In this document: one piece after another, positions 5,669-31,403 of the stretch
How the letters are laid out: each line of letters begins with the position of its first letter
How positions within the stretch are numbered: the stretch's first letter is position 1
From: Ramlibacter sp.
GTDB lineage: Bacteria; Pseudomonadota; Gammaproteobacteria; Burkholderiales; Burkholderiaceae_C
Reading direction: 5' to 3'
Assembly (NCBI GenBank): GCA_028291885.1
Contig: JAQGNJ010000323.1
Coordinates: 1-46,273 of the forward strand
Length of the DNA: 46,273 nt
Position numbers and translations under genes: made by a program
The notes under the pieces: generated by a model
The model's input: the letters and a program-made list of their open reading frames with translations, nothing else
Database searches by the model: none
What the model was told of the DNA's origin: nothing

Positions 5669-7387
5669 ATGTTGACAAGCGTTTCCCCGGCTGAAGGCTT
5701 CGCCGTCGATGAGTCGGAGCTGGGCATCGGCAACCTGCTTGTCCAGACCGGCAAACTGAGCTCGCGCGACCTCGAGCGCGCGATCGCGGCGGGTGACGAA
5801 CTGAGGGGGCGCCTCTCGGAGGTGCTCGTGCAACTCGGGCTGGTGTCCGAGATCGACGTCGCCCAGGCGAGGTCCACCCTGCTCGGGATCCCGTTCGTCA
5901 GCGCCGACGATTTCCCCGAGGTCTGGCCCGACGTGCAGGGCTTGCAGCCGGCTTTCCTGCGGTCGCACCGCGTGCTGCCGGTGGCGCAGCAGGACAGTCA
6001 GCTCGACGTGGTGATGGCGGATCCGCAGGACCGCTTCGTCCTCAAGGCCCTGCGCCTGGCGACGGGCCTGTCGATCCGGCCCTTCCTGGCGATGGGAAGC
6101 GACATCGACAAGGCGCTCGCGCGGCGCGATGTCGAAGGCGGCATCGAGGACGGCGAGGTCGAAGAAGACGTCGATTCGGGCGATTTCGTCGAACACCTGA
6201 AGGATCTCGCCAGCGAAGCGCCGGTGATCCGGCTGGTCAACACGATCATCGGCCGCGTGATCGAGCTGCGCGCTTCCGACATCCACCTGGAGCCGTTCGA
6301 GAACGGCCTGCAGGTGCGCTACCGGGTGGACGGCGTGCTGCAGGAAGCGGACCTGCTTGCGGTCAAGCAGGGAGCCGCGGTCGTCTCGCGCATCAAGTTG
6401 CTCGCGCACATCGATATCGCCGAGCGCCGCTTGCCGCAGGACGGGCGGATCCGCACCCGGGTCAAGGGCCGCGAACTGGATCTGCGGATTTCCACGGTCC
6501 CCACGGTCCACGGCGAAAGCGTCGTCATGCGGGTGCTCGATCGCGCCAGCGTGCGCCTGAGCCTGGAAGAAATGGCGATGGACGAGGCCACGCTGCGAGC
6601 CTTCCGCGCGCTGCTGGCCAGGCCCCACGGGATTTTCCTGGTCACCGGGCCGACCGGAGCGGGCAAGACGACGACGCTGTATGCCGGGCTGTCCGAGCTG
6701 GATGCCTCGGCGCAAAAGATCATCACCGTCGAAGATCCGGTCGAATACCAGTTCGCCGGCATCGCGCAGATGCAGGTGCATTCGCAGATCGGCCTGACCT
6801 TCGCCTCGGCGCTGCGGTCGATCCTGCGGCAGGACCCGGACATCATCATGATCGGTGAAATGCGCGACGGCGAAACCGCGCAGATCGCGGTCCAGGCGGC
6901 GCTCACCGGCCACCTGGTCCTGTCGACGCTGCACACCAACACGGCGGCCAGCGCGGTGATCCGCATGCGCGACATGGGGGTGGAGCGTTATCTCATCACG
7001 TCGACAGTCATCGGCGTCGTGGCCCAGCGCCTGGTCCGCACCTTGTGCGGCGACTGCAAGCAAGCCTACACGCCCGATCCGGCGATGCTGCAGTCCACGG
7101 GCCTGGAGCGGTTCGTCGCGCCCGGTTCTGCGCTGTACCGGGCCCGCGGTTGCCCCAGCTGCCGCAACACCGGCTACAAGGGCCGGGCCGGCCTGTTCGA
7201 GCTGCTGATGGTGGACGACGCCATGCGCAAGGGCATCCTGGACGGCGCCGACGGGTCGGTGCTGCAGGAACTGGCCGTCGGCGCCGGCATGGTCACGCTG
7301 TACGAAGACGGCCTGCGCAAGGTCGGCAAGGGGCTGACAACCTACGAGGAAGTCTTGCGCGCGACCGCGAGCGAGGACAATGGCTGA
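5669..7387 (+). CDS. gspE: type II secretion ATPase GspE
   Basis: A 572-residue cytoplasmic hexameric ATPase that drives pseudopilus assembly. An N1E domain (~1-150) is followed by the N2E/C-terminal ATPase: Walker A GPTGAGKTTTLYA near residue 327, the Asp box ITVEDPVEYQ, Walker B DPDIIMIGEMRD, the His box LVLSTLHTNTA, and a zinc site made of LCGDC near 460 and CPSCRNTGY near 495. I chose the ATG at 5669; a GTG eight codons upstream is in frame but lies in AT-richer sequence (TATGAGACAATTTTG) that looks like promoter or leader. It is the first gene of the T2SS operon and overlaps gspF by 8 bases. Confidence 0.95.
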   Translation: MLTSVSPAEGFAVDESELGIGNLLVQTGKLSSRDLERAIAAGDELRGRLSEVLVQLGLVSEIDVAQARSTLLGIPFVSADDFPEVWPDVQGLQPAFLRSHRVLPVAQQDSQLDVVMADPQDRFVLKALRLATGLSIRPFLAMGSDIDKALARRDVEGGIEDGEVEEDVDSGDFVEHLKDLASEAPVIRLVNTIIGRVIELRASDIHLEPFENGLQVRYRVDGVLQEADLLAVKQGAAVVSRIKLLAHIDIAERRLPQDGRIRTRVKGRELDLRISTVPTVHGESVVMRVLDRASVRLSLEEMAMDEATLRAFRALLARPHGIFLVTGPTGAGKTTTLYAGLSELDASAQKIITVEDPVEYQFAGIAQMQVHSQIGLTFASALRSILRQDPDIIMIGEMRDGETAQIAVQAALTGHLVLSTLHTNTAASAVIRMRDMGVERYLITSTVIGVVAQRLVRTLCGDCKQAYTPDPAMLQSTGLERFVAPGSALYRARGCPSCRNTGYKGRAGLFELLMVDDAMRKGILDGADGSVLQELAVGAGMVTLYEDGLRKVGKGLTTYEEVLRATASEDNG

Positions 7388-8624
7388 ATTCATCTGGCGC
7401 GCAACCGAGCGCTCCGGTCGCACGCAGCATGGGCGGCTCGACGCCGCCAGCGCGCCGCAAGCCGCGCTCCAGCTGCGCTCGCGCGGACTGGTCCCGCTGT
7501 CCATCGAAGCCGCGTCCGGCGCCCTGCCGCAGGGCGCAGCGGATCTGCCGCGGCCGCGCCCATGGTCGCTGTCGCTGCGCAGGAATCCGTCCATCAGCGG
7601 CAAGGACATCCTGAGCGTCACCACCGAATTGAGCATCATGCTGCGGGCCGGACTGCCTTTGGCCTATGCCCTCAAGCTGCTGCTCGAGATGGGGCACAAC
7701 CCGGCCCTGCGCACGTTGCTGCAGGAGGTGCTGGACGACGTGAAGGGCGGCGCGCCCCTGAGCCGGGCGCTGGCGCGCCACCCCGCGCAGTTCGGCGAGT
7801 TCTACGTCAGCATGGTCCGCGCCGGCGAGGCGGGCGGGCAGCTGGCCGTGGTGCTGGAGCGACTGGTCGGCCACATGGAGCGCATTGCGGCGATGCGCGA
7901 GAACGTGGTGTCGGCCGCCACCTATCCCGCGATCCTGCTCGGCGTGTCCGTGCTGTCGGTGATCGGCATGATCGGTTTCGTCGTGCCGCAGTTCGAGAAG
8001 CTGTTCGCCGACCTCGGAGACGCCATTCCCTTCGCCACCCGGGTGGTGCTGATGTTGAGCCATGTGTTCCGCGACTGGGGCCTGCTGATCGGCATCGTCC
8101 TCGTGATCGCGGTATGGGCGGGGCGGCGCTGGGCCCACACGCCCGCGGGGCACGCGAAGCTCCAGGCGCGGCTCTTGCGCCTGCCGCTGGTCGGCAAGCT
8201 GTTGCTCGATTTCCAGCTCACGGTGTTTGCCCGCACCATGGGCACGCTGGTTGCCGGCGGTGTGTCGCTGCTCGGGGCCATCGAGATCGCGATCTCCACC
8301 GTTACCAGCCCGCCGGTGCGGCAAGCGATGTCCGGGATGGCGTCCTCCATCAAGGGCGGCGGCAGGTTGACCCAGGCACTGGCCGAGACCCGGCAGTTCG
8401 AGCCGCTCGCGGTGAATCTGGTCCGCGTCGGCGAGGAGACCGGAAGGCTCGGACCCATGCTGCTCGAGGTTGCGCAGCTGCTTGACCGCAGGGTGGAAAC
8501 CGGAGTGCGCCGCCTTCTCACGCTGCTCGAGCCTGCGCTGATCCTGCTGCTCGGCGGGCTCATCGCCACCATCATTGTTTCCATCCTGCTTGGCATCCTG
8601 GCGATCAATGATCTCGCTGTATGA
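7380..8624 (+). CDS. gspF: type II secretion inner-membrane platform protein GspF
   Basis: A 414-residue protein with two repeated T2SSF domains (residues ~75-200 and ~280-400), each ending in membrane segments such as YPAILLGVSVLSVIGMIGF and ALILLLGGLIATIIVSILLG. The N-terminal FIWRATERSGRTQHGRLDA is typical of GspF. It forms the membrane base that couples GspE to the pseudopilus. Its ATG overlaps the end of gspE, showing translational coupling; gspG starts 8 bases after its stop. Confidence 0.95.
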   Translation: MAEFIWRATERSGRTQHGRLDAASAPQAALQLRSRGLVPLSIEAASGALPQGAADLPRPRPWSLSLRRNPSISGKDILSVTTELSIMLRAGLPLAYALKLLLEMGHNPALRTLLQEVLDDVKGGAPLSRALARHPAQFGEFYVSMVRAGEAGGQLAVVLERLVGHMERIAAMRENVVSAATYPAILLGVSVLSVIGMIGFVVPQFEKLFADLGDAIPFATRVVLMLSHVFRDWGLLIGIVLVIAVWAGRRWAHTPAGHAKLQARLLRLPLVGKLLLDFQLTVFARTMGTLVAGGVSLLGAIEIAISTVTSPPVRQAMSGMASSIKGGGRLTQALAETRQFEPLAVNLVRVGEETGRLGPMLLEVAQLLDRRVETGVRRLLTLLEPALILLLGGLIATIIVSILLGILAINDLAV

Positions 8625-8631
8625 TTTTGGA

Positions 8632-9084
8632 ATGACCAACGCTTCCCGTTTTCGCCCGAGCCGTGCACGCCGCAGCGGCATTCGCACACATGGTTTTACG
8701 CTGGTCGAACTGCTGGTCGTGCTCGCGATCCTTGCGCTGCTGGCCGGCATCGTCGGCCCCAAGGTCCTGGGCCAGCTCGGAGGCGCCAAGGCGAAGACCG
8801 CCGCCGTCCAGATCGCCGACCTGGAAAAGACATTGGAGCTCTTCAAGCTGGACGTCGGCCGTTATCCCACGGCGGAAGAAGGTCTCGATGCGCTGGTCAA
8901 GAAGCCCGCCAATGCAACTGCCTGGTCCGGCCCTTACCTCAAGGGAGGCGTGCCCATGGACCCATGGTCCCATCCCTATGTCTACAAGCCCGGCGCCGGC
9001 GGTACTTTCGAAATCCTGTCTCTCGGGGCGGATGGCACGCCAGGCGGTGAGGGTGAAAACGGCGACATCCGCAACAAGCAATAG
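8632..9084 (+). CDS. gspG: major pseudopilin GspG
   Basis: A 150-residue major pseudopilin. After a 20-residue basic leader comes the prepilin peptidase site G/FTLVELLVVLAILALL with the essential Glu at +5, then a hydrophobic helix. The globular part has the GRYPTAEEGLDALV signature and the C-terminal calcium-loop region GPYLKGGVPMDPW ... LGADGTPGGEGENGDI. I took the ATG at 8632 rather than in-frame upstream starts because those lie inside gspF and lengthen the leader abnormally. GspG polymerises into the piston-like pseudopilus. Confidence 0.94.
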   Translation: MTNASRFRPSRARRSGIRTHGFTLVELLVVLAILALLAGIVGPKVLGQLGGAKAKTAAVQIADLEKTLELFKLDVGRYPTAEEGLDALVKKPANATAWSGPYLKGGVPMDPWSHPYVYKPGAGGTFEILSLGADGTPGGEGENGDIRNKQ

Positions 9085-9553
9085 CCCCGCCGGCCTTTCC
9101 CGTGCGCGGCGAGCGCGCGGGTTCACGCTGATCGAACTCCTGGTCGTCCTGGCGCTGCTGGCGCTGGTCACGGCGCTGGTTCCTCCCTCGTTCGAGCGCC
9201 TGCGCGAGTCCATGCAGTACCGCGACACCGTGCGCCGGGTGCTCGGCGACCTGCGTGCCGCGCGGCAACTGGCACTCGCCGAGGGCAGGGAAGTGCGTTT
9301 CAGCATCGACTTGCCGGCCCGCAATTTCGGCGTGGAGGGCCGCGCCCCGACCTCGTTGCCCGAGACGCTGCAGATCCACTTCACCGCGGCGCAGATCGAG
9401 GCGACGGCGCAGCAGAAGGTCTCGATCCGGTTCCATCCGCAGGGTGGCGCCACGGGCGGGACGGTCGAGCTCGTGCGCCCCAGCGGCGCCGGGACCCGGA
9501 TCACGGTGGACTGGCTGTCGGGCGGCGTTTCCCAGTCGCCGATCGGCTCATGA
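9053..9553 (+). CDS. gspH: minor pseudopilin GspH
   Basis: A ~166-residue minor pseudopilin with leader RARRARG/FTLIELLVVLALLALV, the conserved peptidase site and Glu at +5. The C-terminal part includes LGDLRAARQLALAEGREV, matching the GspH pattern. No ATG is placed suitably; the GTG at 9053, overlapping the end of gspG by 32 bases and preceded by GGTGAGG, gives a leader of normal length. A GTG at 9047 is the alternative. The stop overlaps the gspI ATG. Confidence 0.88.
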   Translation: MKTATSATSNSPAGLSRARRARGFTLIELLVVLALLALVTALVPPSFERLRESMQYRDTVRRVLGDLRAARQLALAEGREVRFSIDLPARNFGVEGRAPTSLPETLQIHFTAAQIEATAQQKVSIRFHPQGGATGGTVELVRPSGAGTRITVDWLSGGVSQSPIGS

Positions 9554-9963
9554 GCGCCGGCGCCTGTCGCGCCTCGCGCGGCTTCTCCCTGCTGGAACTG
9601 CTGGTGGCCCTGTCCATCATGAGCATGGCGCTGGGCCTGCTGTACCAGGCAAGCTCCGGCGCGCTGCGCGGCGTCGGCGATCTGGACATGGACCAGCGCG
9701 CCGGCGTGCTCGCGCAGTCGATCCTGGAGGCGCGCGATTCCGTGCCTGCCGCCGGCTGGAACGAGAGCGGCCGGTCCGCGGAGATGAACTGGCAGGTGAG
9801 GACCGCGCCCTATGAAACGCCGGTCGCCCGGGACGTGCCGGCGGCGCCCCGGCTGCACGAAGTCCGCGTGCTCGTCGAATGGGAGAGCCGGCGCGGTCCG
9901 CGCCAGCTCGAACTGCACACGTTGCTGCCGCAGCAACGTCCCTTGCCGGGGGAGCGGCGATGA
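9550..9963 (+). CDS. gspI: minor pseudopilin GspI
   Basis: A 137-residue minor pseudopilin. The short leader MSAGACRASRG is cut before FSLLELLVALSIMSMALGLL; the mature part has the AGVLAQSILEAR segment common in GspI. Together with GspJ, GspK and GspH it makes the tip complex that starts pseudopilus assembly. Its ATG overlaps the gspH stop and its TGA overlaps the gspJ ATG by 4 bases (ATGA), so the three are tightly coupled. Confidence 0.9.
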   Translation: MSAGACRASRGFSLLELLVALSIMSMALGLLYQASSGALRGVGDLDMDQRAGVLAQSILEARDSVPAAGWNESGRSAEMNWQVRTAPYETPVARDVPAAPRLHEVRVLVEWESRRGPRQLELHTLLPQQRPLPGERR

Positions 9964-10616
9964 AGGCGGCAAGCGCGCGGTCGCGCGGGTTCACGCTGGT
10001 CGAAGTGCTGGTCGCGATGAGCCTGCTTTCCCTGGTGCTGCTGGTGCTGGGATCCTCGATCCGCAGCATGGGCGCATCGGCCGAACGCATCGATGCGCGA
10101 TCGGCGCGCATCGACGAGATGCGGGTCGCGACGACCTTCCTGCGCGAGATCGCCGGGCGGGCGGCGGCGCAGCGGCTGGAGGCTCCGGCCGTCGGCCTGC
10201 TGTTCGCGGGCTCTGCGGACAGCGTGAGCTGGGTCGGCGTGATGCCGCCCCGGTTCGGCGCGGCCGGACGGCATTTCTTCCGGCTCGCCGTCGAGAGGGT
10301 CGATGACGGCAGCTCGGGGCTGGTGCTGCGCTTCGTTCCCTGGCGCTGGGACCAGAAGGTCATGCCCGACTGGTCGCGGGCGGAGTCGCGCGTGCTGGTG
10401 CGCAACCTCAGTTCCGCCGCCCTGTCATACGCCGGCAACGGGATGGGCGAGGCCTGGTTGGCCGCGTGGCCGCCCGAGGAGAAGAAGCTTCCGCCGCGCT
10501 TGCGGTTGCTGCTGTCCGCCGCCGGCTCGGAGTGGCCGCCGATCGTCCTGGCCATGCACCCGCTACCCGCCAGCGCCGGCGGCGGCGGTGGCGGCTTCGT
10601 CCGCGGTCCGGAATGA
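9960..10616 (+). CDS. gspJ: minor pseudopilin GspJ
   Basis: A 218-residue minor pseudopilin. The leader MKAASARSRG precedes FTLVEVLVAMSLLSLVLLVL, with the +5 Glu and hydrophobic helix. The globular part contains FLREIAGRAAAQRLE and RFVPWRWDQK, followed by a Gly-rich C-terminus (GGGGGGF). The start ATG overlaps the gspI stop; more upstream in-frame codons would add an unneeded N-terminus. GspJ joins GspI and GspK in the pseudopilus tip. Confidence 0.88.
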   Translation: MKAASARSRGFTLVEVLVAMSLLSLVLLVLGSSIRSMGASAERIDARSARIDEMRVATTFLREIAGRAAAQRLEAPAVGLLFAGSADSVSWVGVMPPRFGAAGRHFFRLAVERVDDGSSGLVLRFVPWRWDQKVMPDWSRAESRVLVRNLSSAALSYAGNGMGEAWLAAWPPEEKKLPPRLRLLLSAAGSEWPPIVLAMHPLPASAGGGGGGFVRGPE

Positions 10617-11464
10617 TGGCGATGGCGCATTCCGGTGGGCTTGCAAGAGGCCAGCGCGGCGTCGCGCTGGTTGCGGTGCTGTGGGTGGTCGCGGCGCTGA
10701 GCATCCTGGTCACCGGCCTGGTCCAGACCCAGCGCGACGAGATCCGGACCTCGTCCTCGGCACGCGTGCGCCTGCAGGCGGACGCGGTCGGCCAGGGGGC
10801 GATTCACCTGGTCGTCCAGGAACTGATCGGACGCAACCAGCGGCCCGAGCGGCTGTCGCGGACCAACATTGCCTACGACGGGGTCCAGGTGCAGGTCCAG
10901 ATCGAGCCCTTGTCGGGCCTGGTGGATCTGAACACCGCGCCGGCGCCCCTGCTCGCGGCGCTTTTTGCCGTCAACGGCGGCGTCGAGCCGGCGGTGGCAC
11001 AGCGCCTCGCGGCCACCGTCGTGGCCATGCGCGAAGCGCGTCCGGCGGGCCCTCCGCCTCGGTTCCAGGCTGTCGAGGAACTGCTGTCGGTCGAGGGAAT
11101 CGACTACGACCTGTATGCTAGACTCGCCCACCTTGTGACGACCGACTCGAGGGGAAGCGGGCGGATCAATCCGCTCGCGGCGCCGCAAGATGTGTTGCTG
11201 CTTCTTGCAGACGGCGACCAGGCCCTGGCGAACAGGATTGCCGCGGATCGCGATGCGGACGCCGCCGGCATGGATACCACGAGACTGCAGACAGCTTTCA
11301 CCGACAAGTCGGTATCGGGCCGTTTGAGGTTCAGGGCCTCCGTGCCGCTTCCCGGCGGCGGGCACGTGATCGTCGTCCGCGATATTGAAGTTTCGCCTGC
11401 CCCCGACGGGACGGCGCCCTGGCAGACGATGCGAACGCACGCGCCTGTGATGAGCCTCAGGTAG
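10613..11464 (+). CDS. gspK: minor pseudopilin GspK
   Basis: A 283-residue minor pseudopilin, large as usual for GspK. The leader ends in RGQRG before VALVAVLWVVAALSILVTGL, and GspK characteristically lacks the +5 Glu, as here. The LVDLNTAPAPLLAALFAVNG segment near residue 105 is the helix-hairpin-like motif typical of GspK. Two adjacent ATGs (10613 and 10616) overlap the gspJ stop; I list the first. GspK caps the pseudopilus and may sense substrate. Confidence 0.9.
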   Translation: MMAMAHSGGLARGQRGVALVAVLWVVAALSILVTGLVQTQRDEIRTSSSARVRLQADAVGQGAIHLVVQELIGRNQRPERLSRTNIAYDGVQVQVQIEPLSGLVDLNTAPAPLLAALFAVNGGVEPAVAQRLAATVVAMREARPAGPPPRFQAVEELLSVEGIDYDLYARLAHLVTTDSRGSGRINPLAAPQDVLLLLADGDQALANRIAADRDADAAGMDTTRLQTAFTDKSVSGRLRFRASVPLPGGGHVIVVRDIEVSPAPDGTAPWQTMRTHAPVMSLR

Positions 11465-11476
11465 GCCCCGATCCAC

Positions 11477-12664
11477 ATGAACAACGCAAGCTCCGCGATC
11501 CGATCATCCACCGAGTTCCAGCTCGGCGAATTCATCCGGCAGGTGACTGCGTCGCTGCGGCAGCTGCATACCCACCCGGCGCTGGCCTGGATCACGCCGC
11601 AACTGCCGGTCAGGCTGATCGAGGCCGGGACAGGCGAATCCCTCTGGCTTGGCGGCACGAAGCTGGACGCGGACGAGGCCACGATACGGTCGGCCCGCTT
11701 CACGGCGATCGAAGTTCCGGCCGATCTGGTCCTGAGCCGCAGCATGGTCCTGCCGCCCCTGGCGGAAAGCGACATCCGGGACGCAGTCGCGCTCGACGTG
11801 CGCGATTCGAACCCCTTCGATCCTTCCGACCTGGTGTGGGGTTACCGCAGCGGGCCTGGCGAAGCAGGGCAGGTCGACGTGACGGCGGTGCTCGCCTCGC
11901 GCCGGCTGGTCAACCAGCACATCGAGCAGGTCGCGCCCGAGCTCGCCGGCTCGCCATCGCTCGAGGCCTGGGCGATGGCTCCCGATGGCGCTCCCGTCGT
12001 ACTCAAGGGCTTTGGCGAGGCTGCCCGCGCACGCAGCGCCGGCAGGGGTCGCGTGCTGGCATACGGCCTCATGACACTCGGGCTGATGCTCGCCATCGCC
12101 GCCGCGGTCACGCCGACCGTGCAGCTTCACATGCGCACGCTCCAGGCCGCCGCGGCCTACAAGGCCTTGCAGCAGCGCGCCGGTCCCGCGATGGCGCAGC
12201 GCGAGGCCCTGGTGCGAGGCCGCGAGGACCTCGCCAACCTGCGCGAAGTCATGGCCGATCACATCGACCCGCTGGTTGCAATCGACATGCTCACCCAGCT
12301 CATTCCCGACGACACGTGGCTGCAGCGCGTGCAGGTGCAGGGCAACCGGTTCACCCTGAGCGGCCAGACGCCCAATGCGGCGGCGCTGATGAACACACTG
12401 AGCAGCAAGAGCGGGCTGAGTGAGGTGCGGGCGCCCTCGCCGGCGACCCGGGTGTCCGGCAGCCGCGAGAGCTTCGTGGTGGAGTTCACCGTCGCGCCCA
12501 CCCTGCTGCAGCGCAATGCGCAGCCGCCGGGCCTGCCGGCAGTTGCGGTTGCGGCTGCGGCTGCGGCTCCGGCTCCGGCTCCCGCTGCGCAAGCGGCCGC
12601 TTCCCAGCCGGCGTCCCCGGCGTCGGCGCCGGCGACAGCTGGCCCGGTGAGGTCGCAGCCATGA
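11477..12664 (+). CDS. gspL: type II secretion protein GspL-like (PilN-type C-terminus)
   Basis: A 395-residue bitopic inner-membrane protein. Residues 1-~200 form a cytoplasmic actin-like domain that would bind GspE (SMVLPPLAESDIRDAVALDV is the typical segment), a single membrane helix near residues 195-218 (YGLMTLGLMLAIAAAVT) follows, then a periplasmic PilN/GspL-type ferredoxin-like domain with DMLTQLIPDDTWLQRVQVQG. The C-terminus is a low-complexity Ala/Pro tail encoded by a hexanucleotide repeat. Its stop overlaps the gspM ATG by 4 bases. Confidence 0.85.
   Translation: MNNASSAIRSSTEFQLGEFIRQVTASLRQLHTHPALAWITPQLPVRLIEAGTGESLWLGGTKLDADEATIRSARFTAIEVPADLVLSRSMVLPPLAESDIRDAVALDVRDSNPFDPSDLVWGYRSGPGEAGQVDVTAVLASRRLVNQHIEQVAPELAGSPSLEAWAMAPDGAPVVLKGFGEAARARSAGRGRVLAYGLMTLGLMLAIAAAVTPTVQLHMRTLQAAAAYKALQQRAGPAMAQREALVRGREDLANLREVMADHIDPLVAIDMLTQLIPDDTWLQRVQVQGNRFTLSGQTPNAAALMNTLSSKSGLSEVRAPSPATRVSGSRESFVVEFTVAPTLLQRNAQPPGLPAVAVAAAAAAPAPAPAAQAAASQPASPASAPATAGPVRSQP
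12543..12590 (+). repeat. hexanucleotide tandem repeat in gspL
   Basis: Eight imperfect 6-base units (TTGCGG x2, CTGCGG x2, CTCCGG x2, CTCCCG, CTGCGC) in the 3' part of gspL. They code for the Val/Ala then Ala/Pro-rich tail. Unit number changes would keep the frame and only alter tail length. Confidence 0.85.
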
Positions 12665-13209
12665 AGGCGCGCGCGGCGGATACGGCCGTTCTGCTTTCGC
12701 TCGTGTTGCTGGTTGCGGCGCTTGCGGGCCTGTTCGCGTTCTACGTGCACGGCATCCACCGGGCCGACGAGGAAACGCTGGCGACGATCGAGCCGCGGTT
12801 CGCGCGGCTTGCCGGCCTGGCGATGGACACGGGCCAGCTCGCGACGGCGCTCGCGTCGACCAAAGCCGCGGCCTCGCGCCACATCTATCCGGCAAGCCGC
12901 GACGTCAGCCAGTCCGGCAACGACGCCCAGCAGCGGGCGCGCGACATCTTTTCCAGAGCCGGACTGGAGGTGCTGAGCAGCCAGGTCCTGCCGGCCAAGG
13001 CTGTCAAGCAATTCGACCGCATCCCGATCACGGTGCGGGTGGAAGGGGAATATCTCGCCTTCCAGACGGCGCTTGCTGCGATGCCCACCCTGGCGCCGAC
13101 CTTGTTCGTCGACGGCTTCAACATCCAGAGCATCGGGGCAGCCAAACCCGATGCGCCGCTGCGGCTCGTCGTCCAGCTGGAGCTGTTCGTGTTGCGGGCA
13201 CGCTCATGA
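12661..13209 (+). CDS. gspM: type II secretion protein GspM-like
   Basis: A 182-residue protein with one N-terminal membrane helix (VLLSLVLLVAALAGLFAFYV, residues ~10-30) and a periplasmic domain. RARDIFSRAGLEVLSSQ and YLAFQTALAAMPTLAPTLFVD match the GspM type b fold rather than the classical enterobacterial GspM. With GspL it anchors GspE to the membrane. ATGA overlaps on both sides (12661-12664 and 13206-13209) place it in the operon between gspL and the GspC/N-like gene. Confidence 0.82.
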   Translation: MKARAADTAVLLSLVLLVAALAGLFAFYVHGIHRADEETLATIEPRFARLAGLAMDTGQLATALASTKAAASRHIYPASRDVSQSGNDAQQRARDIFSRAGLEVLSSQVLPAKAVKQFDRIPITVRVEGEYLAFQTALAAMPTLAPTLFVDGFNIQSIGAAKPDAPLRLVVQLELFVLRARS

Positions 13210-13841
13210 GACGCTACCTGATCCCGTTGTTCGTCGCGGCGAACATCGCACTTGCCGGCGTGCTTGCCTGGTTGTGGGTGACGCCTCAGGGCCAGGTGCG
13301 CAACGTGCGCTGGACCCCTCCGGCCCCGCTCAGGCCGGTGTTGAACGACTCCGAACTTCCTTCCTGGAGCGTGGACCTGGGCAGCTTCGTTGCTGCGCTC
13401 GACCGGCCGCTGTTCGCGGCAACCCGCAGGCCGCCACCCAAGCCGGAGGAAGCTCCTGCCGTGGTGGCCGACACCCTGGGCGATGTCCGGATACTGGGCC
13501 TGTATTCGACCGGCGGCACCTCGGGCGGCGGGATCGTCCGCGCCGAAGGAAAAATACGCAGGGTGCGGCAGGGCGACGTCCTCGGTGGCTGGACCATCAA
13601 GGAAGTCAGGCCGCACGAGCTGCTGCTTGCGCGCGGAAACGAAGAGCGGACGCTGGACGTCAAGCGCGGCCCGGATCTGGCAGCGGACGTGCCCGGGGCG
13701 CCGGGCGCGGGTGCGGCGGGACCCGCCGGGTCGACGCCTCCAGGCGGCGACCCGGGCGTCAGAAGGCAGCAGGAAGCCGATGCCAGCAAGGCGGCTGTCA
13801 ACGCGATGCGCGCCCGCGCCGGGATGGCGCCCTTACCTTGA
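13206..13841 (+). CDS. GspC/GspN-like T2SS inner-membrane clamp protein
   Basis: A 211-residue protein with an N-terminal membrane helix (LIPLFVAANIALAGVLAWLW) and a periplasmic part. Residues ~85-160 (LGDVRILGLYSTGG, GKIRRVRQGDVLGGWTIKEV, PHELLLARGNEERTLDVKR) have the beta-strand pattern of the GspC homology region or PilP domain, which contacts the secretin. No PDZ domain or coiled coil follows; the rest is Gly/Pro-rich and disordered. I infer it replaces GspC as the link between platform and GspD. It starts in a 4-base overlap with gspM and ends 22 bases before gspD. Confidence 0.72.
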   Translation: MRRYLIPLFVAANIALAGVLAWLWVTPQGQVRNVRWTPPAPLRPVLNDSELPSWSVDLGSFVAALDRPLFAATRRPPPKPEEAPAVVADTLGDVRILGLYSTGGTSGGGIVRAEGKIRRVRQGDVLGGWTIKEVRPHELLLARGNEERTLDVKRGPDLAADVPGAPGAGAAGPAGSTPPGGDPGVRRQQEADASKAAVNAMRARAGMAPLP

Positions 13842-13863
13842 CTGAATCAACTCGGACATCTAC

Positions 13864-16113: not shown

Positions 16114-16129
16114 AGAGAGAGAAGAAAGC

Positions 16130-16555: not shown

Positions 16556-16630
16556 ACCAATTGACGTCGGACAGAAAGTCATACGGCGACCGCGAGTCGT
16601 TCAGCCAATGGAGGGATGAGATCGAATGGA

Positions 16631-16683: not shown

Positions 16684-16711
16684 TAGACAGCGCGGGGCGC
16701 TGTGCTAGCAT
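16684..16711 (+). promoter_or_regulatory. sigma70-type promoter of the surface-protein gene
   Basis: A -35 element TAGACA (16684-16689, 5 of 6 consensus bases) is separated by 16 bases from an extended -10 element TGCTAGCAT (hexamer TAGCAT, 16706-16711). Transcription would start near 16718, leaving a ~50-base leader before the ATG at 16768. The surrounding 16556-16767 stretch is AT-richer than its neighbours and contains no gene. Confidence 0.55.
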
Positions 16712-18558: not shown

Positions 18559-18575
18559 TTTCTGCTAGGTTGATG

Positions 18576-18606
18576 GAGAGGCGGGTTTACCCGCCTCTCT
18601 TTTTTT
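18576..18606 (+). terminator. rho-independent terminator after the surface-protein gene
   Basis: An 11-base perfect inverted repeat (GAGAGGCGGGT at 18576-18586 and ACCCGCCTCTC at 18589-18599) is followed directly by a run of seven T, then G and more T. It lies 17 bases after the stop codon and is among the strongest terminators in the window, fitting a highly expressed single gene. Confidence 0.93.
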
Positions 18607-24128: not shown

Positions 24129-25923
24129 CGTATTGATGGTGATCTACCGGCCGCGGCTGCAGGAGCTGGCCGACTGCCTGGCTGCCTTGCGGCGCGAAGC
24201 CGACAAGGTGCCCGGCCTTCATGTGCGCCTGCGCCACAACGACGGCGGCCCGGCGATCACGCCGGGGCTGCAGGCGCTTTACGACAGCGCCGTCGCCGGC
24301 GGCCTGTCGCTGGAACTTGCCGACACCGAGGGCGGCAACATCGGTTTCGGCCGCGGCATGAATGCCCTGATGGCCACCAGCCAGGCGCCGTTCGTGCTGG
24401 TGCTGAACCAGGATGCGATCCCCGAGCCGGGCTCGCTGGAATTCCTGTGCGAGACGGCGCGAACCGACGCGGCGCAGGTCGCGGCCTGGGAGATGCGGCA
24501 GATCCCGTTCGAGCATCCCAAGGACTACGACCCGGTGACCCTGGACACGGAATGGGTCAGCGGCGCCGCCGTGCTGCTGCGCACCAGCGCTGCGCGCCAG
24601 GTCGGAGGCTTCGAACCCCGCATCTTCATGTACGGGGAAGACGTGGAGCTGTCGTGGCGCCTGCGCTGCGCCGGTTACCGCCTGCGCTACATTCCGCGCT
24701 GCGCGGTCGTGCACCACACCTACGCCGAGGCCAATGAGGTCAAGCCGCTGCAGGTGCTCGAAGGCATCTACGCCAACCTGAGCATCCGCGCCCGTTATGC
24801 GGGCCACCGCCAGATCCTGCAGGGCGTGTCGATGGCCTGCGCCGAAATGATGATCCCGCAGCCGTTTCCCGGCCGGCGCAAGGGGATCGCCAGGGCGCTG
24901 ACCAAGTTCGCGCGCAACTACCGCTATTTCTGGAACAGCCACCAGTCGGCCAAGGGATTCGAGCCGCGTTTTACCGGCTGGAGTTTCGAGCTGCGCCGCG
25001 AAGGTGCCTTCCACTCCTTCCTGCCGGCGGCTGAACAGCCTGCGCACAAGCCGCTGGTGTCGATCCTGATCCGCACCCACAAGCGCGCCGGCTTCCTGCG
25101 CCAGGCCCTCACCTCCGTGCTGCACCAGACCTACCGCAACATCGAGGTGATCGTCGTCGAAGACGGCTCGAGCGAGGGCCAGGCGGTCTGCGACGAGTTC
25201 CGCGACCGGCTGGACGTGAGCTACTTCCGGCTGAACCCCGGCCGTGGCCGCTCGGTGGCCGGCAACCTGGCGCTGGCCAAGGCGCGCGGCGAGTGGATGT
25301 GCTTCCTGGACGACGACGACCTGCTGTTCGCCGACCACGTCGAAGTGCTGCTGCAGACAGCCGGCAAGCATCGCGTGCTCGGCGCATACAGCCTGGCGTG
25401 GCGAACCCATACCCACGTGGTCGACGAGCAGGCCGCGGTCGTCCAGGAACTGCGGCACGAGGTCTTCCCCGACGAGCCCTTCTCGCGCATGGTGCTGTGG
25501 CACCACAACTTCATGCCGATCCAGAGCGTGCTGTTCCATCGCAGCCTCTACGAGCGGCACGGTGGCTTCGCCGAGGACATGGACCAGCTCGAGGACTGGA
25601 ACCTGTGGACGCGCTACGCCATCGACGAGGACTTCGTCCAGCTGCGCAAGGTGACCTCGAAGTACCGCGTCCCGGCGGCCGTGCACATCTCTTCGCAGCG
25701 CCAGGCGCGGCTCGACGAGGCTTACCGCGATGCGGTCGCCCGCCAGGCGAAGATCGAGTTCAAGGCCAACCCGGGCCTGGTGCGCCAGATGGCGGAGGAC
25801 TACGCCAAGCAGAACGCGCTGATCCACGTCGGCCGCGACCAGGTGCGCCGCAGCTTTGCGCGCTGGCCCCTGCTGCGCCAGGTGTTCGCGCTGCGCGGGC
25901 TGTTGCGCCTGCGTCGCCGCTAG
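24121..25923 (+). CDS. two-domain glycosyltransferase (GT2-GT2)
   Basis: A 600-residue protein with two GT-A domains. The first (~1-280), rhamnosyltransferase-like, has MVIYRPRLQELADCLAAL, NIGFGRGMNALM, LVLNQDAIPEPG (DXD-type) and YGEDVELSWRLRCAGYRL. The second (~315-560) has VSILIRTHKRAGFLRQALTS, IEVIVVEDGSSEGQ, WMCFLDDDDLLFADHVEVLL and MDQLEDWNLWTRYA. Such fusions add two linkages of a repeat or alternate linkages in a polymer. It is the last plus-strand gene of the exporter operon, and its TAG shares the palindrome CTAG with the stop of the convergent gene. Confidence 0.87.
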   Translation: MVDVLMVIYRPRLQELADCLAALRREADKVPGLHVRLRHNDGGPAITPGLQALYDSAVAGGLSLELADTEGGNIGFGRGMNALMATSQAPFVLVLNQDAIPEPGSLEFLCETARTDAAQVAAWEMRQIPFEHPKDYDPVTLDTEWVSGAAVLLRTSAARQVGGFEPRIFMYGEDVELSWRLRCAGYRLRYIPRCAVVHHTYAEANEVKPLQVLEGIYANLSIRARYAGHRQILQGVSMACAEMMIPQPFPGRRKGIARALTKFARNYRYFWNSHQSAKGFEPRFTGWSFELRREGAFHSFLPAAEQPAHKPLVSILIRTHKRAGFLRQALTSVLHQTYRNIEVIVVEDGSSEGQAVCDEFRDRLDVSYFRLNPGRGRSVAGNLALAKARGEWMCFLDDDDLLFADHVEVLLQTAGKHRVLGAYSLAWRTHTHVVDEQAAVVQELRHEVFPDEPFSRMVLWHHNFMPIQSVLFHRSLYERHGGFAEDMDQLEDWNLWTRYAIDEDFVQLRKVTSKYRVPAAVHISSQRQARLDEAYRDAVARQAKIEFKANPGLVRQMAEDYAKQNALIHVGRDQVRRSFARWPLLRQVFALRGLLRLRRR

Positions 25924-28205
25924 ACCGGCGTGCCCGTTGCGCGGGCGCGGTCCAGGGCTTCGCGGAAGGGCCGGGCCGGGTCGCGCTGCACGAACTCCCG
26001 GATCATGTCTTCGTAGCCGGGGTGCAGCCGCCGGATCGCCTGCAGCGCGTTGGCCTGCAGCGCGACGCGGCTTTCCTTGAAGCTGGCGCCGCCCTCGTGG
26101 TAGACGAAGACGTCCAGCGCGTGCAGATGCCGCCAGCCCAGGGCCGTGGCGCGCAGGCAGAAGTCGTTCTCCTCGCCGTAGCCCTTGCCGAAATTGGCAG
26201 CGTCGAATTCGCCGACCCGGTCCAGGCACGCCCTGCGGATGTACATGCAAAAGCCCACCGCGGTCGGGATGTCGACGGCCCGGCCGCGATTGACGGCTGC
26301 GCACAGGCGGTCGGTGCTGGCGGTGTCGTGCCCCGGCAGCAAAGGGTTGTCGACGCAGAACTGCGGATAGCTGCAGATGGTGGCGTTGTTGGAGAAGGGC
26401 GTGACCGTGCCCACCGATTCCTGCGACAAGGCCGCGGCGCGCAGCCTGTCGAGCCAGTCGTTCGCCACTTCGGTGTCGCTGTTGAGGAGCACGACGTCGC
26501 GCCGTCCGGCCAGCCGCATGCCCAGGTTCACCGTTTCGACGAAGCCCAGGTTGCGCGCGTTCTCGATCACCGTCACACCCGGATGGCTCACGGCATATTG
26601 ATGCAGCCATTCGCGCACCGCCGGCTCGGGGCTGGCGTCGTTGACGAGGGTCAGGTGGTACGCGCAGTGGCCGCTCGCCGCCTCGACCGACCGAAGGCAG
26701 CGCTGCACCAGGGGCAGGTTGCCATAGATCGGGACCACGACTTCCACGACCGGGTCGAATTGCGCTTCCGCGCTCCGGCGCTGCGGCTCGGGCCGGGCGC
26801 GGCTTCGTCCCGACAAGGCGCCGGCGAGACGTGCCCAGAACCCGGCGCCGGCCGCCGGTCCCTCGGCCACCGCAGCCGCAAGCACGGGGGCGGCAACTGC
26901 CGCCTCGGACTGCCGTGACCGCCGGGCGAGCGCCTCTTCCAGCTCGCGGATCCGCCCGGCCTGGTTTTGCAGGCCGGCCTGCATCCCGGAGAAGCGCTCG
27001 GCCGCCGCAAGATAGTCGGCCGACATCGGCCAGCCGCATTCGACTTCCAGCCTGCAATCCTGCGCCGAGCTTTCGCGCGCGACCGCCTCCGGCAAGGGCA
27101 GCGAAAAATGCGGATCGTCCCCCAGCATCAGCAGCTTCAGCGAGCCGGTCGCGGCGTCGAAGCCGGACACCTCGAGCTGATGGCGGCTGCAGCTCGCGAT
27201 GTCTGCCGCGCTCTCGGCGCAGGCGGACCACTCCCACAGCGGTTGCCCGGTGGCGCCGCGCAGCGTCATGCGCCGCAGCCAGAAAAAGCCCGGCCGGTCC
27301 GCCGGGTCCAGCCGCAAGGCGGGCCAGGGGCCGAGCGAGGCGGGGAGATCGAACACCAGCTGTTGCCGCTCGACGCCGATCTTCCCGTGCCGGGTCATCT
27401 TCCGGTCGGCGGAAAAGCCCTGGTCCGATGCGAAGAAAAGCTGCGCCACGAAGGTGGCGGCGGAAACGTCCTGCGGCGGCGGCATTTCGCGCCGCAGCAC
27501 CGGGCTGGCCGACGCCTCGCGGCTGGCCGCGAACACCAGCTGGTAGGTGTTCGCATCGGGCCGGGTCAGCAGGTACTTGCCGACCGCGGGCGGCAGCGCG
27601 TCGAAGGCCATCCTGAACTCGGTCTCGTGCAGCGGCTGCGCAACCGGCTCGACCTGGCGGACGGCCCAACCGTGTTCGCCCAGCAGCCGCTCGAACGAGC
27701 GCCGCGTGAAAAAGCGCAGGTGCGTCCGGTCCAGGAGCCCTTCGTTGCCGTAGTCGAAATTGCCCTCCAGCAGGTGGGCGACCATGCCGGCATAAGCCAC
27801 GTTCGGGACCGAGACCAGCAGCACGCCATCGGGTCGCAGCAGGCGATGGCAGGCCTGGAGCACGAGCTCGGGGTGTGCGAGGTGCTCCAGCACGTCGGCG
27901 CAGACGATCGCGTCGTAGCCATGCTCGTCGAAGGCCGATCCCCAGCCCGGCTTGTCGAGGTCGAGCACCTCGATGCGCTCATACCAGCTGCGGGCAATCG
28001 CCTGTTCGTCGGGATTGATGGTGACGCCGTCGAGCCGGCATCCCAGCTGTTGCCGCAGGTGCTGGCCGAGGGTGCCCGAGCCGATCCCCAGGTCGAGCAC
28101 CCGCGAGCGCTCCTGGACGAAGCTGCCGAGGACGGACAGGGAGCTGCGTTCGCCGCCGGCGATCGGTCGCCAGTAGATGTGGGTGGGGTTCTCGGTCGTT
28201 GTCAT
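25920..28205 (-). CDS. methyltransferase-glycosyltransferase (GT2) fusion
   Basis: A 761-residue protein. Residues ~30-200 are a class I SAM-dependent methyltransferase: VLDLGIGSGTLGQHL (motif I), YDAIVCADVLEHLAHPELVL, LLRPDGVLLVSVPNVAY, HLRFFTRRSFERLL. A beta-rich middle (~240-400) and a short coiled coil (RIRELEEALARRSRQSEAAV) lead to a GT2 domain (~490-755): VVEVVVPIYGNLPLVQRCLR, NARNLGFVETVNLGMRLA, VVLLNSDTEVANDWL, GKGYGEENDFCLRATALGWR. A protein that both transfers a sugar and methylates could finish the chain. It runs opposite to the exporter operon, with its ATG at 28205. Confidence 0.87.
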   Translation of the reverse strand: MTTTENPTHIYWRPIAGGERSSLSVLGSFVQERSRVLDLGIGSGTLGQHLRQQLGCRLDGVTINPDEQAIARSWYERIEVLDLDKPGWGSAFDEHGYDAIVCADVLEHLAHPELVLQACHRLLRPDGVLLVSVPNVAYAGMVAHLLEGNFDYGNEGLLDRTHLRFFTRRSFERLLGEHGWAVRQVEPVAQPLHETEFRMAFDALPPAVGKYLLTRPDANTYQLVFAASREASASPVLRREMPPPQDVSAATFVAQLFFASDQGFSADRKMTRHGKIGVERQQLVFDLPASLGPWPALRLDPADRPGFFWLRRMTLRGATGQPLWEWSACAESAADIASCSRHQLEVSGFDAATGSLKLLMLGDDPHFSLPLPEAVARESSAQDCRLEVECGWPMSADYLAAAERFSGMQAGLQNQAGRIRELEEALARRSRQSEAAVAAPVLAAAVAEGPAAGAGFWARLAGALSGRSRARPEPQRRSAEAQFDPVVEVVVPIYGNLPLVQRCLRSVEAASGHCAYHLTLVNDASPEPAVREWLHQYAVSHPGVTVIENARNLGFVETVNLGMRLAGRRDVVLLNSDTEVANDWLDRLRAAALSQESVGTVTPFSNNATICSYPQFCVDNPLLPGHDTASTDRLCAAVNRGRAVDIPTAVGFCMYIRRACLDRVGEFDAANFGKGYGEENDFCLRATALGWRHLHALDVFVYHEGGASFKESRVALQANALQAIRRLHPGYEDMIREFVQRDPARPFREALDRARATGTPV

Positions 28206-28258
28206 GGCGGAGCAAGGGAGGCAACCGCGATCTCATCGATCGCGGCGTGTAAATCGCT

Positions 28259-29326
28259 TCAGCGGATTGCCGCGGCGGCCGGGAGCATCTGGGTCCGCGC
28301 CCATCGGCGCAGCACCAGGGCGCGTTTTTCCACCAGATGCCAGGACAGGGCGGCAAACGCAAGCGCGATCACCGTGGACAGGATCACGTAGGGAACCAGG
28401 CCGGCCTTGTGCATGCCGTAGTGGGCCAGGACCTGCTGCACCGGAAAGGCGTAAAGGAACAGGCCGTAGGACCAGTCGCCCATGCGTTCCGGGATCCGGG
28501 GCAGCCACATGGCGTGCAGGCCAAGCCATAGCACCAGGGTCGCGGCCCCGAGCAGGAAGCACGCGGTCGAGACGGGGGTGCCAGCGGCGAGTGCGGCGGC
28601 CAGTCCGATCAGGTAGGCAGCGGGCCAGAACAGGGGACGGATCCGGTCGCCCCAGCTGGCGTAGACAGCGCCCAGGGCGAACACCAGCCCCAGCTTGGTG
28701 TGCTGGTAGTCGAGCCCGAAGAACGCCTCGTGTTGCGGAACGGCCGGCGGGCGCAGCAGCAGCATCGCAAGCAGTCCGGCAGCCACGACCAGCGCCTTGT
28801 ACCGCATGGCCGCCGGCATCAGGCTGACGACAGCCAGGGCGAGATAGCACCTGACTTCCACCGGCAGCGACCACAGCGATCCGTTGACGACCCTGGCCAG
28901 CGGGACCTGGTTGAAGATCTCCGGCAACTGGAACACGACAACGAAGCCCGATGCGGACCAGAGGTACCGCCACGTGTCCGGACGCTGGAAGTATTCCCCT
29001 GCCGGAAGCGCCGTGAACAGCGGGCCGAGCACCAGCATGGAAAAGACGCAAACCACGATCAGCGCCGGATAGATCCGCACGATCCGGTGCCAGAGGAAGA
29101 CCAGCAGGTTGGCATTGCGCTGCAGAGACAGGGTGACCAGATATCCGCTGAGGGCGAAAAAGGTGATCACCCCGACACCGCCGAGCGTGTCGAGCGTGGC
29201 GATCTGGGTCAGAGGATCGCCGACGGAGGCGCCGGAGATGGGGTAGGAGTGGCTGAAGAGCACCAGCCAGGCGGCGATCAGGCGAAGGACGTCGAACCGG
29301 TTCTCGCCGTGCTTTGCGTTCACCAT
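28259..29326 (-). CDS. acyltransferase 3 (O-acetyltransferase) membrane protein
   Basis: A 355-residue polytopic membrane protein of the acyltransferase-3 family. It opens with FDVLRLIAAWLVLFSHSYPI (family histidine), GGVGVITFFALSGYLVTLSL and WHRIVRIYPALIVVC, and ends with MGDWSYGLFLYAFPVQQVL and LSWHLVEKRALV. About ten hydrophobic helices are visible. It is the upstream gene of the minus-strand pair with the methyltransferase-GT2 gene, 53 bases away, so it probably acetylates the same polysaccharide. It is divergent from the GT2 gene at ~29.5 kb. Confidence 0.88.
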   Translation of the reverse strand: MVNAKHGENRFDVLRLIAAWLVLFSHSYPISGASVGDPLTQIATLDTLGGVGVITFFALSGYLVTLSLQRNANLLVFLWHRIVRIYPALIVVCVFSMLVLGPLFTALPAGEYFQRPDTWRYLWSASGFVVVFQLPEIFNQVPLARVVNGSLWSLPVEVRCYLALAVVSLMPAAMRYKALVVAAGLLAMLLLRPPAVPQHEAFFGLDYQHTKLGLVFALGAVYASWGDRIRPLFWPAAYLIGLAAALAAGTPVSTACFLLGAATLVLWLGLHAMWLPRIPERMGDWSYGLFLYAFPVQQVLAHYGMHKAGLVPYVILSTVIALAFAALSWHLVEKRALVLRRWARTQMLPAAAAIR

Positions 29327-29434: not shown

Positions 29435-29497
29435 CCCTCTTTTATTTGCCGTCGGTTATCGACATTGAACGAACCGATTCTAACTACCGCCGGTTCC

Positions 29498-30253
29498 ATG
29501 CCCGCCGGGCAGCGCCAAGCCTCCGTGACGGTGTCCATCGTCAGCCATGAGCACGACCAGTTGATCGTCAAGCTCATGGCGCAGCTGTGCGAGGTTCACG
29601 CGGGGCTGATCGCGCATGTGGTGCTCACGCACAACTTGCGGGCGGAGCCCGTGCCCACTCCGGCGAACGGCTGGCCGTTCAAGCTGACGCAGGTTTTCAA
29701 CGAAAAGCCGGCGGGCTTCGGCGCGAACCACAACCGCGCGTTCGAGCTGTGCCGCACCAACTACTTCTGCGTCCTGAACCCCGACATCGAGCTGTGCGAC
29801 CCGTCGGTCTGGCCGCGGCTGCTGCAATCCATGGCGCAGCCGGATGTGGGCTGCGCCTATCCCTCGCTGCTCAACGCCGACGGCTCGGAGCAGGAAAACG
29901 CGCGCGAGGTGGTGACGCCGTTCGCGCTGGTGCGCCGGCACGTGCTGAAAAGCCCGCAGCGCCGCACCGATTGGGCAAGCGGCGCGTTCTGGGTGGTCTC
30001 GGCCCGGGCCTGGCGCAGCATCGGCGGCTTCGACGAGGGCTACTTCATGTACTGCGAGGACGTCGATTTCTGCCTGCGCCTGCAGCTTGCCGGATGGAAG
30101 CTGGCCCGCGCGGAAACCACCGCCATCCACGACGCCGGCTGGAGCAGCCGCCAGATCAGCACTTATCTCGCGTGGCATTTGAGCAGCCTGATTCGGCTCT
30201 GGCTGCAACCCACCTTGCGCCGCTACCTGTCGTGGCGGGTCCACAGGGCTTGA
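29498..30253 (+). CDS. glycosyltransferase family 2 protein
   Basis: A ~251-residue GT-A glycosyltransferase of the rhamnosyltransferase-like type: VTVSIVSHEHDQLIVKLMAQ, GFGANHNRAFELC, YFCVLNPDIELCD (DXD-type), TDWASGAFWVVSARAWRSIG and GYFMYCEDVDFCLRLQLAGW. The frame is open from a TTG at 29465; I prefer the ATG at 29498 although neither has a clear ribosome site. It precedes the WecA-like gene by 46 bases and likely adds an early sugar of the surface glycan. Confidence 0.85.
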   Translation: MPAGQRQASVTVSIVSHEHDQLIVKLMAQLCEVHAGLIAHVVLTHNLRAEPVPTPANGWPFKLTQVFNEKPAGFGANHNRAFELCRTNYFCVLNPDIELCDPSVWPRLLQSMAQPDVGCAYPSLLNADGSEQENAREVVTPFALVRRHVLKSPQRRTDWASGAFWVVSARAWRSIGGFDEGYFMYCEDVDFCLRLQLAGWKLARAETTAIHDAGWSSRQISTYLAWHLSSLIRLWLQPTLRRYLSWRVHRA

Positions 30254-30299
30254 AGGTGCGGCTACCGAGGCTTGCGCAAAGCCGCCACAATAGCGGTCG

Positions 30300-31403
30300 A
30301 TGTTGCTTTTAGTTATCTTATGTTTCGGTTGCGCCTGTTTGCTGACGGCACTGCTGGTCCGGTTCGGCGCCGCCCACGCCCGTCGATACGGGCTCGGCGT
30401 ACCGCAACGTTTCCACTTCGGTCATGTGCCCCGCCTGGGCGGCGCCGCCATGCTCGCAGGCTGCACGCTGGGCTGGTTCTGGATCGCGATTTCGGGTCCC
30501 CTGGGCTCGTCCAACCAGCTGCGCATGGGCGGCGGCACCGCACTGGCGCTGTGGGTCGTCATGGTGATTCCGACAGCGGCCGGCATCATCGAGGACCTGA
30601 CGCAACGCCTGGGCCCGCGCTTTCGCCTGCTCCTGACGGTGCTGGCCGGCGTCATCGCGGTGAGCGTGCTCGGGCTGGGCGTGCCGCGGCTCGGAGTGCC
30701 TGGCGTGGACGAGCTCTGGCTGGCCTATCCCTGGCTCGGGATGGCGCTGGCCATCTTCGCCATCAGCGGCCTGCCGCATGCCTTCAACCTGATCGACGGC
30801 TACAACGGCCTGGCGGGCCTGGTGGCGCTGATCTGCTGCGTGGCGCTGGCCTATGTCTCGATCCAGGTCGGCGACCGGCAGCTGGCCGCGATCGTGCTGT
30901 CCCTTGCCGGCGCGACCGCCGGCTTCCTGATCTGGAACTACCCGCGCGGCCTGATCTTCGCCGGCGACGGCGGCGCCTATCTCTGGGGCGTGGTGATCGC
31001 AGTCGCCTGCATCCTGCTGGTGCAGCGCCACCCCCAGGTTTCGCCGTGGTTCCCGGCGCTGTTGCTGATCTACCCGGTCTGGGAAACCATCTTCTCGATC
31101 TGGCGCAAGGCGATCCGCGGCGTGTCCCCGGGCGTCGCGGACGCGCTGCACTTCCACCAGCTGATCTACCGGCGGATCGTGCGGGGCGTCTTCCACGACG
31201 ACGAATCGCGCCGCATGCTGATGCGCAACAACCGCACCTCGCCTTATCTCTGGGGCTTCACGCTGCTGACCGTGTGCCCGGCCGTGCTGTTCTGGAACAA
31301 CACGATGGTGTTGATGGGATTCACGCTGCTGTTCGTGGTGTCGTACGTCTACGCCTACCGCAGCATCGTCCGGTTCCGCGTTCCTCGCTGGCTCAGACGA
31401 TAG
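30300..31403 (+). CDS. undecaprenyl-phosphate sugar-1-phosphate transferase (WecA/WbpL family)
   Basis: A 367-residue integral membrane protein of the MraY/WecA superfamily with about ten helices. It carries the family signatures: [10 protein letters not shown] (acidic motif), [12 protein letters not shown] near residue 161, [13 protein letters not shown], and the cytoplasmic His motif [11 protein letters not shown] near residue 283. Such enzymes move a sugar-1-phosphate, usually N-acetylglucosamine or N-acetylfucosamine/quinovosamine, to undecaprenyl phosphate and so start O-antigen or capsule synthesis. This fits an ABC-exporter-dependent glycan. The sugar specificity cannot be read from sequence. 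Confidence 0.9.

Follow-up and report, generated by a model that had tools for sequence, protein, structure and literature searches.

Gene content of the locus

The DNA analyzed here (the window) is a stretch of 46,273 nucleotides from a 4.3-Mb, 340-contig assembly of Ramlibacter sp., and its main subject is a locus in which the genes of a type II secretion system (T2SS) are followed by the gene for an exported protein of 596 residues and by genes for polysaccharide export. An earlier reading of the letters alone (the sequence-only reading) had seen a T2SS operon with gspD and a lipoprotein gene at its end, next the 596-residue protein, then a prolyl isomerase and a Wzm/Wzt exporter, and had taken the whole for an assembly locus of the surface layer (S-layer) type. 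All of these parts are present, in the order stated (Table 1), and the S-layer interpretation is supported, since the surface protein is, judged by sequence, a homolog of NpdA, an experimentally demonstrated S-layer protein.

Upstream of the npdA homolog lie 11 gsp-like genes (5645-16113). GspD and GspG score above curated cut-offs and are accompanied by E, F and pseudopilins, so that the cluster qualifies as a T2SS. In the gspH-gspK region the NCBIfam matches (XpsH, XpsI, GspJ, GspK) are all below their cut-offs, and the assignment of the gspC/N-like gene is weak (GspC_delta E 0.0027). The parvulin-type isomerase is probably periplasmic. Of the parts expected of an O-antigen exporter, both permease and ATPase were recognized; the nearest NCBIfam model for Wzm is a galactan Wzm (2e-20, below the cut-off of that model).

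Identity of the surface protein

The 596-residue protein has no match in Pfam, NCBIfam or the PDB sequences, and Pfam searches with 60 of its relatives returned few matches, each single and weak. It is nevertheless recognizable by sequence as an NpdA homolog, because it is 42% identical (E 3e-102) to the protein of Paracidovorax citrulli DSM 17060 (locus L058) and 37% identical (E 2e-89) to that of Delftia acidovorans NBRC 14950 (L093); the homology to the characterized NpdA spans the full length. That the L058 protein is itself NpdA is indicated by its computed mature mass of 52398.6 Da when cut after residue 25, which fits the 25-residue signal peptide and the 52,394 Da given for NpdA of P. 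citrulli AAC00-1 (PMC10765051). The N terminus of the window's protein appears signal-peptide-like from sequence and alignment, with Ala25 invariant in 20 aligned rows. A Rubrivivax sp. metagenome-assembled genome (MAG; L033) is among its nearest relatives in the scan, and Rubrivivax is on the published list of npdA carriers (PMC10765051). No other match to the protein was found in the window's own assembly.

Experiments have established NpdA as an S-layer protein in both Delftia and Paracidovorax (PMC3110197, PMC10765051). Deletion and cryo-electron microscopy are the evidence in PMC10765051, which also reports orthologs from 62 species of Betaproteobacteria and 49 of Gammaproteobacteria. The window is a further member of this published kind.

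A structure model of NpdA, built from an alignment (A8) of 59 of 78 usable NpdA frames plus the window's, reached a mean predicted local distance difference test score (pLDDT) of 84.7 and a predicted template modeling score of 0.89. Foldseek returned no PDB match at E ≤0.001 for this model (best E 8.7e-3). Many of the weak matches are galectin-like sandwiches; because the matches are weak and their TM-scores low, a sugar-binding interpretation of the fold was dropped. A second NpdA alignment (A1) omitted L010, L019 (a weak match in genome G009) and L022 (a match with an internal stop). In G009, L019 and L170 show a weakly NpdA-like open frame of 441 residues downstream of glycosyltransferase-like genes; the 11-kb contig has no recognized T2SS genes apart from one weak match.

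The sequence-only reading had credited npdA with every sign of high expression, and part of this stands. A strong terminator follows the gene, the effective number of codons (Nc) is low for the GC content at third codon positions (GC3; Nc 32.1 at GC3 0.82, with GGT at 0.25 and CGT at 0.21), and rare arginine codons (0.12) are fewer in only one of the 32 other window genes compared, the short gspG. The promoter does not stand out: the site in Table 1 is the sole sigma-70-like one found in 13000-22600, with 0.6 expected by chance. Seven of the 32 other genes have a lower Nc than npdA, all of them at higher GC3, and terminator-like matches overall are no commoner than chance would give (6 against 6.7 expected). 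Ribosomal protein L2 was not found in the assembly, and the codon comparison is one with other genes of the window. Codon bias and the gene's own signals would fit an abundant product, without proving one.

The small lipoprotein

Between gspD and npdA lies a small lipoprotein gene. The lipobox residue Cys26, as well as Cys94 and Cys100, are invariant in 49 aligned members. An AF2 model (pLDDT 88.4; alignment A9, 48 of 58 usable frames plus the window's) predicts an NTF2-like fold, with Foldseek matches to PBP3 of Bacillus subtilis and to PBP2a (best E 2.3e-4), whose matched domain we take to be NTF2-like, and a lower-ranked match to a protein titled NTF2-like.

Conservation of the gene neighborhood

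A search of 150 genomes of the family found a match to the 596-residue protein in 19, the window's own included, and a scan of named genomes gave 133 confirmed places, of which the best 80 loci were used, making 81 sequences with the window. Being the best 80 of 133, these loci lean to close relatives; several are from one MAG and some are from the same genomes as those given G numbers below, and the counts are not independent events. Open reading frames were called in all 81 sequences and searched with profiles grown from the window's proteins (E ≤1e-5).

The order gspE-D, small lipoprotein, npdA, prolyl isomerase, wzm, wzt is widely conserved. Homologs of the surface gene do not routinely lie far from T2SS and wzm/wzt genes, an outcome that would have spoken against the sequence-only reading: the distance to npdA is at most 10 kb for gspD in 71 of the 81 sequences and at most 9.5 kb for wzm in 68. 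The lipoprotein gene is within 10 kb in 72, the isomerase gene within 8 kb downstream in 73, and wzt nearby in 67, two of these matches (L043, L098) being stray ATPases without wzm. Among the 66 sequences whose flanks are long enough on either side, all five markers occur in 56, the window included, when the gsp block may lie anywhere within 10 kb, and in 52 when gspD and the lipoprotein gene must lie upstream; isomerase, wzm and wzt are near npdA in 57. In L052, L070, L081 and L089, npdA, isomerase, wzm and wzt are still together even though the genes for the T2SS and the lipoprotein lie downstream in opposite orientation.

Outside the family, 15 of 368 other genomes of the class have an npdA match, from which 18 stretches were taken. 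The lipoprotein is the commonest partner of npdA there (9 stretches), followed by the isomerase (7), wzm with wzt (6) and gspD (5), and the six stretches with wzm/wzt span five families. The polysaccharide exporter can accompany npdA even without a T2SS close by: in L146-L148, which belong to other families, lipoprotein, npdA, isomerase and wzm/wzt are together in a 20-kb stretch devoid of gsp genes.

Genome-wide, wzm was searched in 26 of the 34 npdA-positive genomes from the family and class searches, G009, G154, G181, G264, G325, G351, G366 and G431 being left out for weak or contig-end matches. In 22 of the 26 a wzm match lies within about 4.4 kb of the npdA match, including G035, where only a fragment of npdA is matched, at the end of a contig. 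In 34 npdA-negative genomes, 32 of which have a gspD match at E ≤1e-30, gspD lies within 15 kb of wzm only twice (G003, G015), both times in the variant locus described below. The npdA-linked type of GspD (E ≤1e-100) is found in 25 of the 150 family genomes, namely 17 of 19 with npdA against 8 of 131 without.

Further npdA paralogs, solitary or in tandem and away from the T2SS, were seen in G018 (C1:3193811-3199935) and G514 (C19 and C30; L142, L143). Extra paralogs could permit switching of the coat type.

A variant locus with another protein in the npdA slot

Of the eight family genomes with npdA-type GspD and no npdA, six carry a locus consisting of gspD, lipoprotein, a protein that we call X, an FG-GAP-like protein, isomerase, a glycosyltransferase-like gene, wzm and wzt. 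X is an exported protein of 309-340 residues that occupies the npdA slot. It has no Pfam match (two members scanned) and no NCBIfam match (three scanned), and its profile matches exactly these six genomes among the 150, with one copy in each. Comparison of the X and NpdA profiles gave a probability of 3.7% (E 0.011), against 0.12% for a control pair, over 74 columns made up of the signal peptide and one short stretch. A WecA-like gene lies downstream in four of the six X stretches, and in one of them argB is beside it, as in the window; the X site is thus the window's wecA-argB site in at least one case.

Of the other two genomes, one has a contig that ends after gspD (L167). The other (L163, genome G069) has an npdA-type gspD and only gsp genes, with no lipoprotein, npdA or X downstream in the stretch, and may have lost its coat gene. 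A GspD tree of 32 of the 34 picked loci (L144 and L145 were left out) places the six X loci and L167 on one branch (100/100), for which reason the X variant looks like one event, even if the program counts two changes for the bare X label, since L167 lies inside.

Coordinates and neighboring genes

Table 1. Features of the window, and coding stretches of X in the six variant loci.
Feature	Position	Strand	Evidence
gspE and gspF, T2SS ATPase and platform protein	5645..8624	+	Pfam T2SSE 7.3e-139, T2SSF 5.4e-55
gspG, major pseudopilin, start uncertain	8635..9084	+	NCBIfam TIGR01710 E 1.8e-44, above cut-off
gspH, gspI, gspJ, gspK, minor pseudopilins, starts uncertain	9104..11464	+	Pfam GspH and N_methyl
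gspL-like (PilN domain), gspM (T2SSM_b), gspC/N-like	11477..13841	+	Profile matches
gspD, secretin	13864..16113	+	TIGR02517 E 6.9e-127, 424 bits against cut-off 351
Small lipoprotein	16130..16555	+	Lipobox Cys26, alignments, predicted NTF2-like fold, npdA linkage
Promoter-like site, TG before second hexamer	16684..16711	+	Sigma-70-like match
npdA homolog, S-layer protein candidate, 596 residues	16768..18558	+	Homology to P. citrulli and Delftia acidovorans proteins
Intrinsic terminator-like stem after npdA	18575..18600	+	11-pair stem, fold z -2.97
PpiC/parvulin-type prolyl isomerase, start uncertain	18638..19558	+	Rotamase_3 7.5e-28
wzm, ABC-2 polysaccharide permease	19602..20378	+	ABC2_membrane 3.4e-13
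wzt, ATPase	20375..21661	+	ABC_tran 6.3e-20
Open reading frame without assignment (21658-22530) and two glycosyltransferase genes	21658..25923	+	
Methyltransferase-glycosyltransferase fusion (761 residues, 25920-28205) and acyltransferase-3 family protein	25920..29326	-	
Glycosyltransferase-like gene and WecA-like polyprenyl-phosphate transferase	29465..31403	+	
X coding stretch	L157:10888-11820		
X coding stretch	L158:7423-8349		
X coding stretch	L164:7167-8126		
X coding stretch	L165:6555-7538		
X coding stretch	L166:6563-7582		
X coding stretch	L168:11857-12810		

The 761-residue methyltransferase-glycosyltransferase fusion sits within the polysaccharide cluster, on the opposite strand; fusion proteins of this kind can cap O-chains. 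Further downstream (36102-44954), the genes of a TRAP transporter (DctP, DctQ, DctM) are grouped with those for a sugar-acid dehydratase, a dehydrogenase, a GntR regulator and FAH-family proteins, apparently a sugar-acid catabolic cluster of the ordinary kind. Scans of the window for tRNA genes, and for Rfam families at the gathering threshold, found none.

Discussion

The observed gene content, the homology to NpdA and the wide conservation of the gene group are consistent with a model, which we consider probable, of an S-layer locus of the NpdA type. NpdA, which carries a signal peptide, would cross the inner membrane by the Sec pathway and fold in the periplasm, probably with the assistance of the linked prolyl isomerase. 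It would then leave the cell via the T2SS encoded just upstream and form the S-layer outside by binding lipopolysaccharide (LPS), the O-polysaccharide of which would be exported by the linked Wzm/Wzt. The lipoprotein with its predicted NTF2-like fold is proposed to be a dedicated envelope helper, either pilotin-like or an assembly or docking factor. Two published findings bear on the last step. The surface protein extracted from Delftia (Comamonas) acidovorans formed sheets or cylinders only when LPS was added (recounted in PMC3110197, 2011), and the A-layer of Aeromonas is tethered by LPS, a wzt deletion there lacking O-antigen (PMC4483657). The sequence-only reading had already suggested anchoring by O-chains; gene linkage and the LPS-dependent reconstitution favor the idea, which nevertheless goes beyond what is directly observed and is weakened by near relatives without adjacent wzm/wzt (L031-L034).

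Several observations count against this model. npdA is not simply co-transcribed with its neighbors, because a terminator-like stem of its own follows it. The carbohydrate-binding C-terminal domain of Wzt is weak, scoring below the Pfam cut-off (Wzt_C 1.8e-4, 22 bits against 30.4). Wzm and wzt are absent beside npdA in the four loci just mentioned, which are four of the window's five nearest relatives by NpdA, and in L038; the fifth nearest, L035, has them. Elsewhere in the genome, wzm is present for L032, L033, L034 and L038, and a search of the L031 genome found none. Four npdA paralogs of one Comamonadaceae MAG are solitary (L043, L049, L051, L098), with stray ABC-ATPase-like matches near two of them. 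Nine of the 18 class-wide stretches have none of the five partners, these being extra paralogs, contig ends or weak matches, and four of the 26 genomes searched for wzm have no match near npdA (G086, G503, G174, and G012, in which npdA lies at a contig edge and no wzm match was found). Finally, a published description of NpdA as glycosylated (PMC3958437) leaves room for the sugar genes to act in some other way.

This last description is why we retain the explanation that the polysaccharide genes glycosylate NpdA itself instead of providing an LPS anchor, and the glycosyltransferases and the WecA-like gene of the locus would suit such a role. However, the description is a single phrase in the text consulted, words that start with glycosyl, glycoprotein or carbohydrate are absent from the main text of PMC3110197, and the published reconstitution of NpdA requires added LPS. 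No O-oligosaccharyltransferase was recognized among the window genes scanned, although no search aimed at one was made. We regard glycosylation of NpdA as an unlikely purpose of these genes. It is similarly improbable that the O-polysaccharide genes are mere neighbors, a general LPS locus that happens to lie beside an S-layer locus without a working link. The loci without adjoining wzm/wzt would be accounted for in this way, as would the finding that the 14 Wzm sequences aligned with that of the window are only 20-52% identical to it. Against it, the linkage between wzm/wzt and npdA recurs in several families, also where the gsp genes are inverted or outside the stretch, and adjacency within 10 kb is expected by chance in well under one of the 26 genomes, as compared to 22 seen (hand arithmetic from 44 wzm matches at E ≤5.5e-21 in 26 genomes of about 4 Mb).

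A further explanation concerns the T2SS, which could be a general enzyme secretion system, with NpdA reaching the surface by another way. P. citrulli has a second gsp cluster (PMC10765051), and three loci of other families keep npdA without gsp genes in the 20-kb stretch. However, the GspD type tracks npdA or X in 23 of the 25 family genomes that have it, and one of the two exceptions is a contig edge. We give this explanation only a slim chance and prefer export of NpdA by the linked T2SS.

The six-genome clade with X suggests, more tentatively and with somewhat less than even confidence on our part, that the locus is a modular S-layer platform, in which a conserved set of T2SS, NTF2-like lipoprotein, isomerase and Wzm/Wzt serves an exchangeable coat slot. 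Lineages would swap the coat, which is mostly NpdA and, in this clade, X together with the FG-GAP-like protein. If the slot is exchangeable in this sense, then X would be a new S-layer protein; the conserved linkage predicts a second S-layer protein in genomes without NpdA.

The S-layer and T2SS part of the sequence-only reading is right, but already published. In both Beta- and Gammaproteobacteria, npdA has been reported next to a gsp cluster, an arrangement likened to that of Aeromonas vapA and Pseudoalteromonas slr4 (PMC10765051, 2023); with this Aeromonas comparison in print for the T2SS, the idea is no novelty for the family. The main text of that paper, however, contains none of the words Wzt, prolyl, isomerase, lipoprotein, lipopolysaccharide, LPS, O-antigen, anchor or polysaccharide; its supplementary figures may show such genes. 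Including the O-polysaccharide exporter thus goes one step beyond the printed description of the npdA neighborhood, and the conserved set of lipoprotein, isomerase and exporter, as well as the X variant, look undescribed within the literature searched. In that literature we found no paper naming both npdA and wzm, no experiment on the route of NpdA export or on its attachment to the cell, and no mutant of the gspD, wzm or lipoprotein gene of this locus; T2SS mutants are named as future work (PMC10765051). The linkage yields a short list of candidate genes (gspD, the lipoprotein, the isomerase and wzm/wzt) and connects the earlier report that assembly depends on LPS with one particular O-chain exporter.

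Among known systems, the NpdA/nanopod system of Delftia acidovorans Cs1-4 and Paracidovorax citrulli AAC00-1 (PMC3110197, PMC10765051) shares with the window a full-length homologous S-layer protein, a signal-peptide-like N terminus and an upstream gsp cluster, for which 12 genes are counted in the published neighborhood (PMC10765051). Other strains of the same two species (L058, L093) have lipoprotein, isomerase, wzm and wzt in the order of the window. The window differs in that its protein is only 37-42% identical and its S-layer is predicted from the genes. The A-layer locus of Aeromonas salmonicida (vapA, sps T2SS, wzm/wzt; PMC4483657), the parallel drawn by the sequence-only reading, does combine an S-layer gene, a T2SS and an exporter as the window does. 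In its layout, however, wzm and wzt flank an inserted T2SS-vapA block, whereas those of the window follow the isomerase gene, and the likeness is one of gene content. The S-layer protein Slr4 of Pseudoalteromonas tunicata (PMC7821379), which is abundant and about 57 kDa in size, has its gene directly behind a gsp operon; it has been published as a separate protein, and its resemblance to the window's is one of description.

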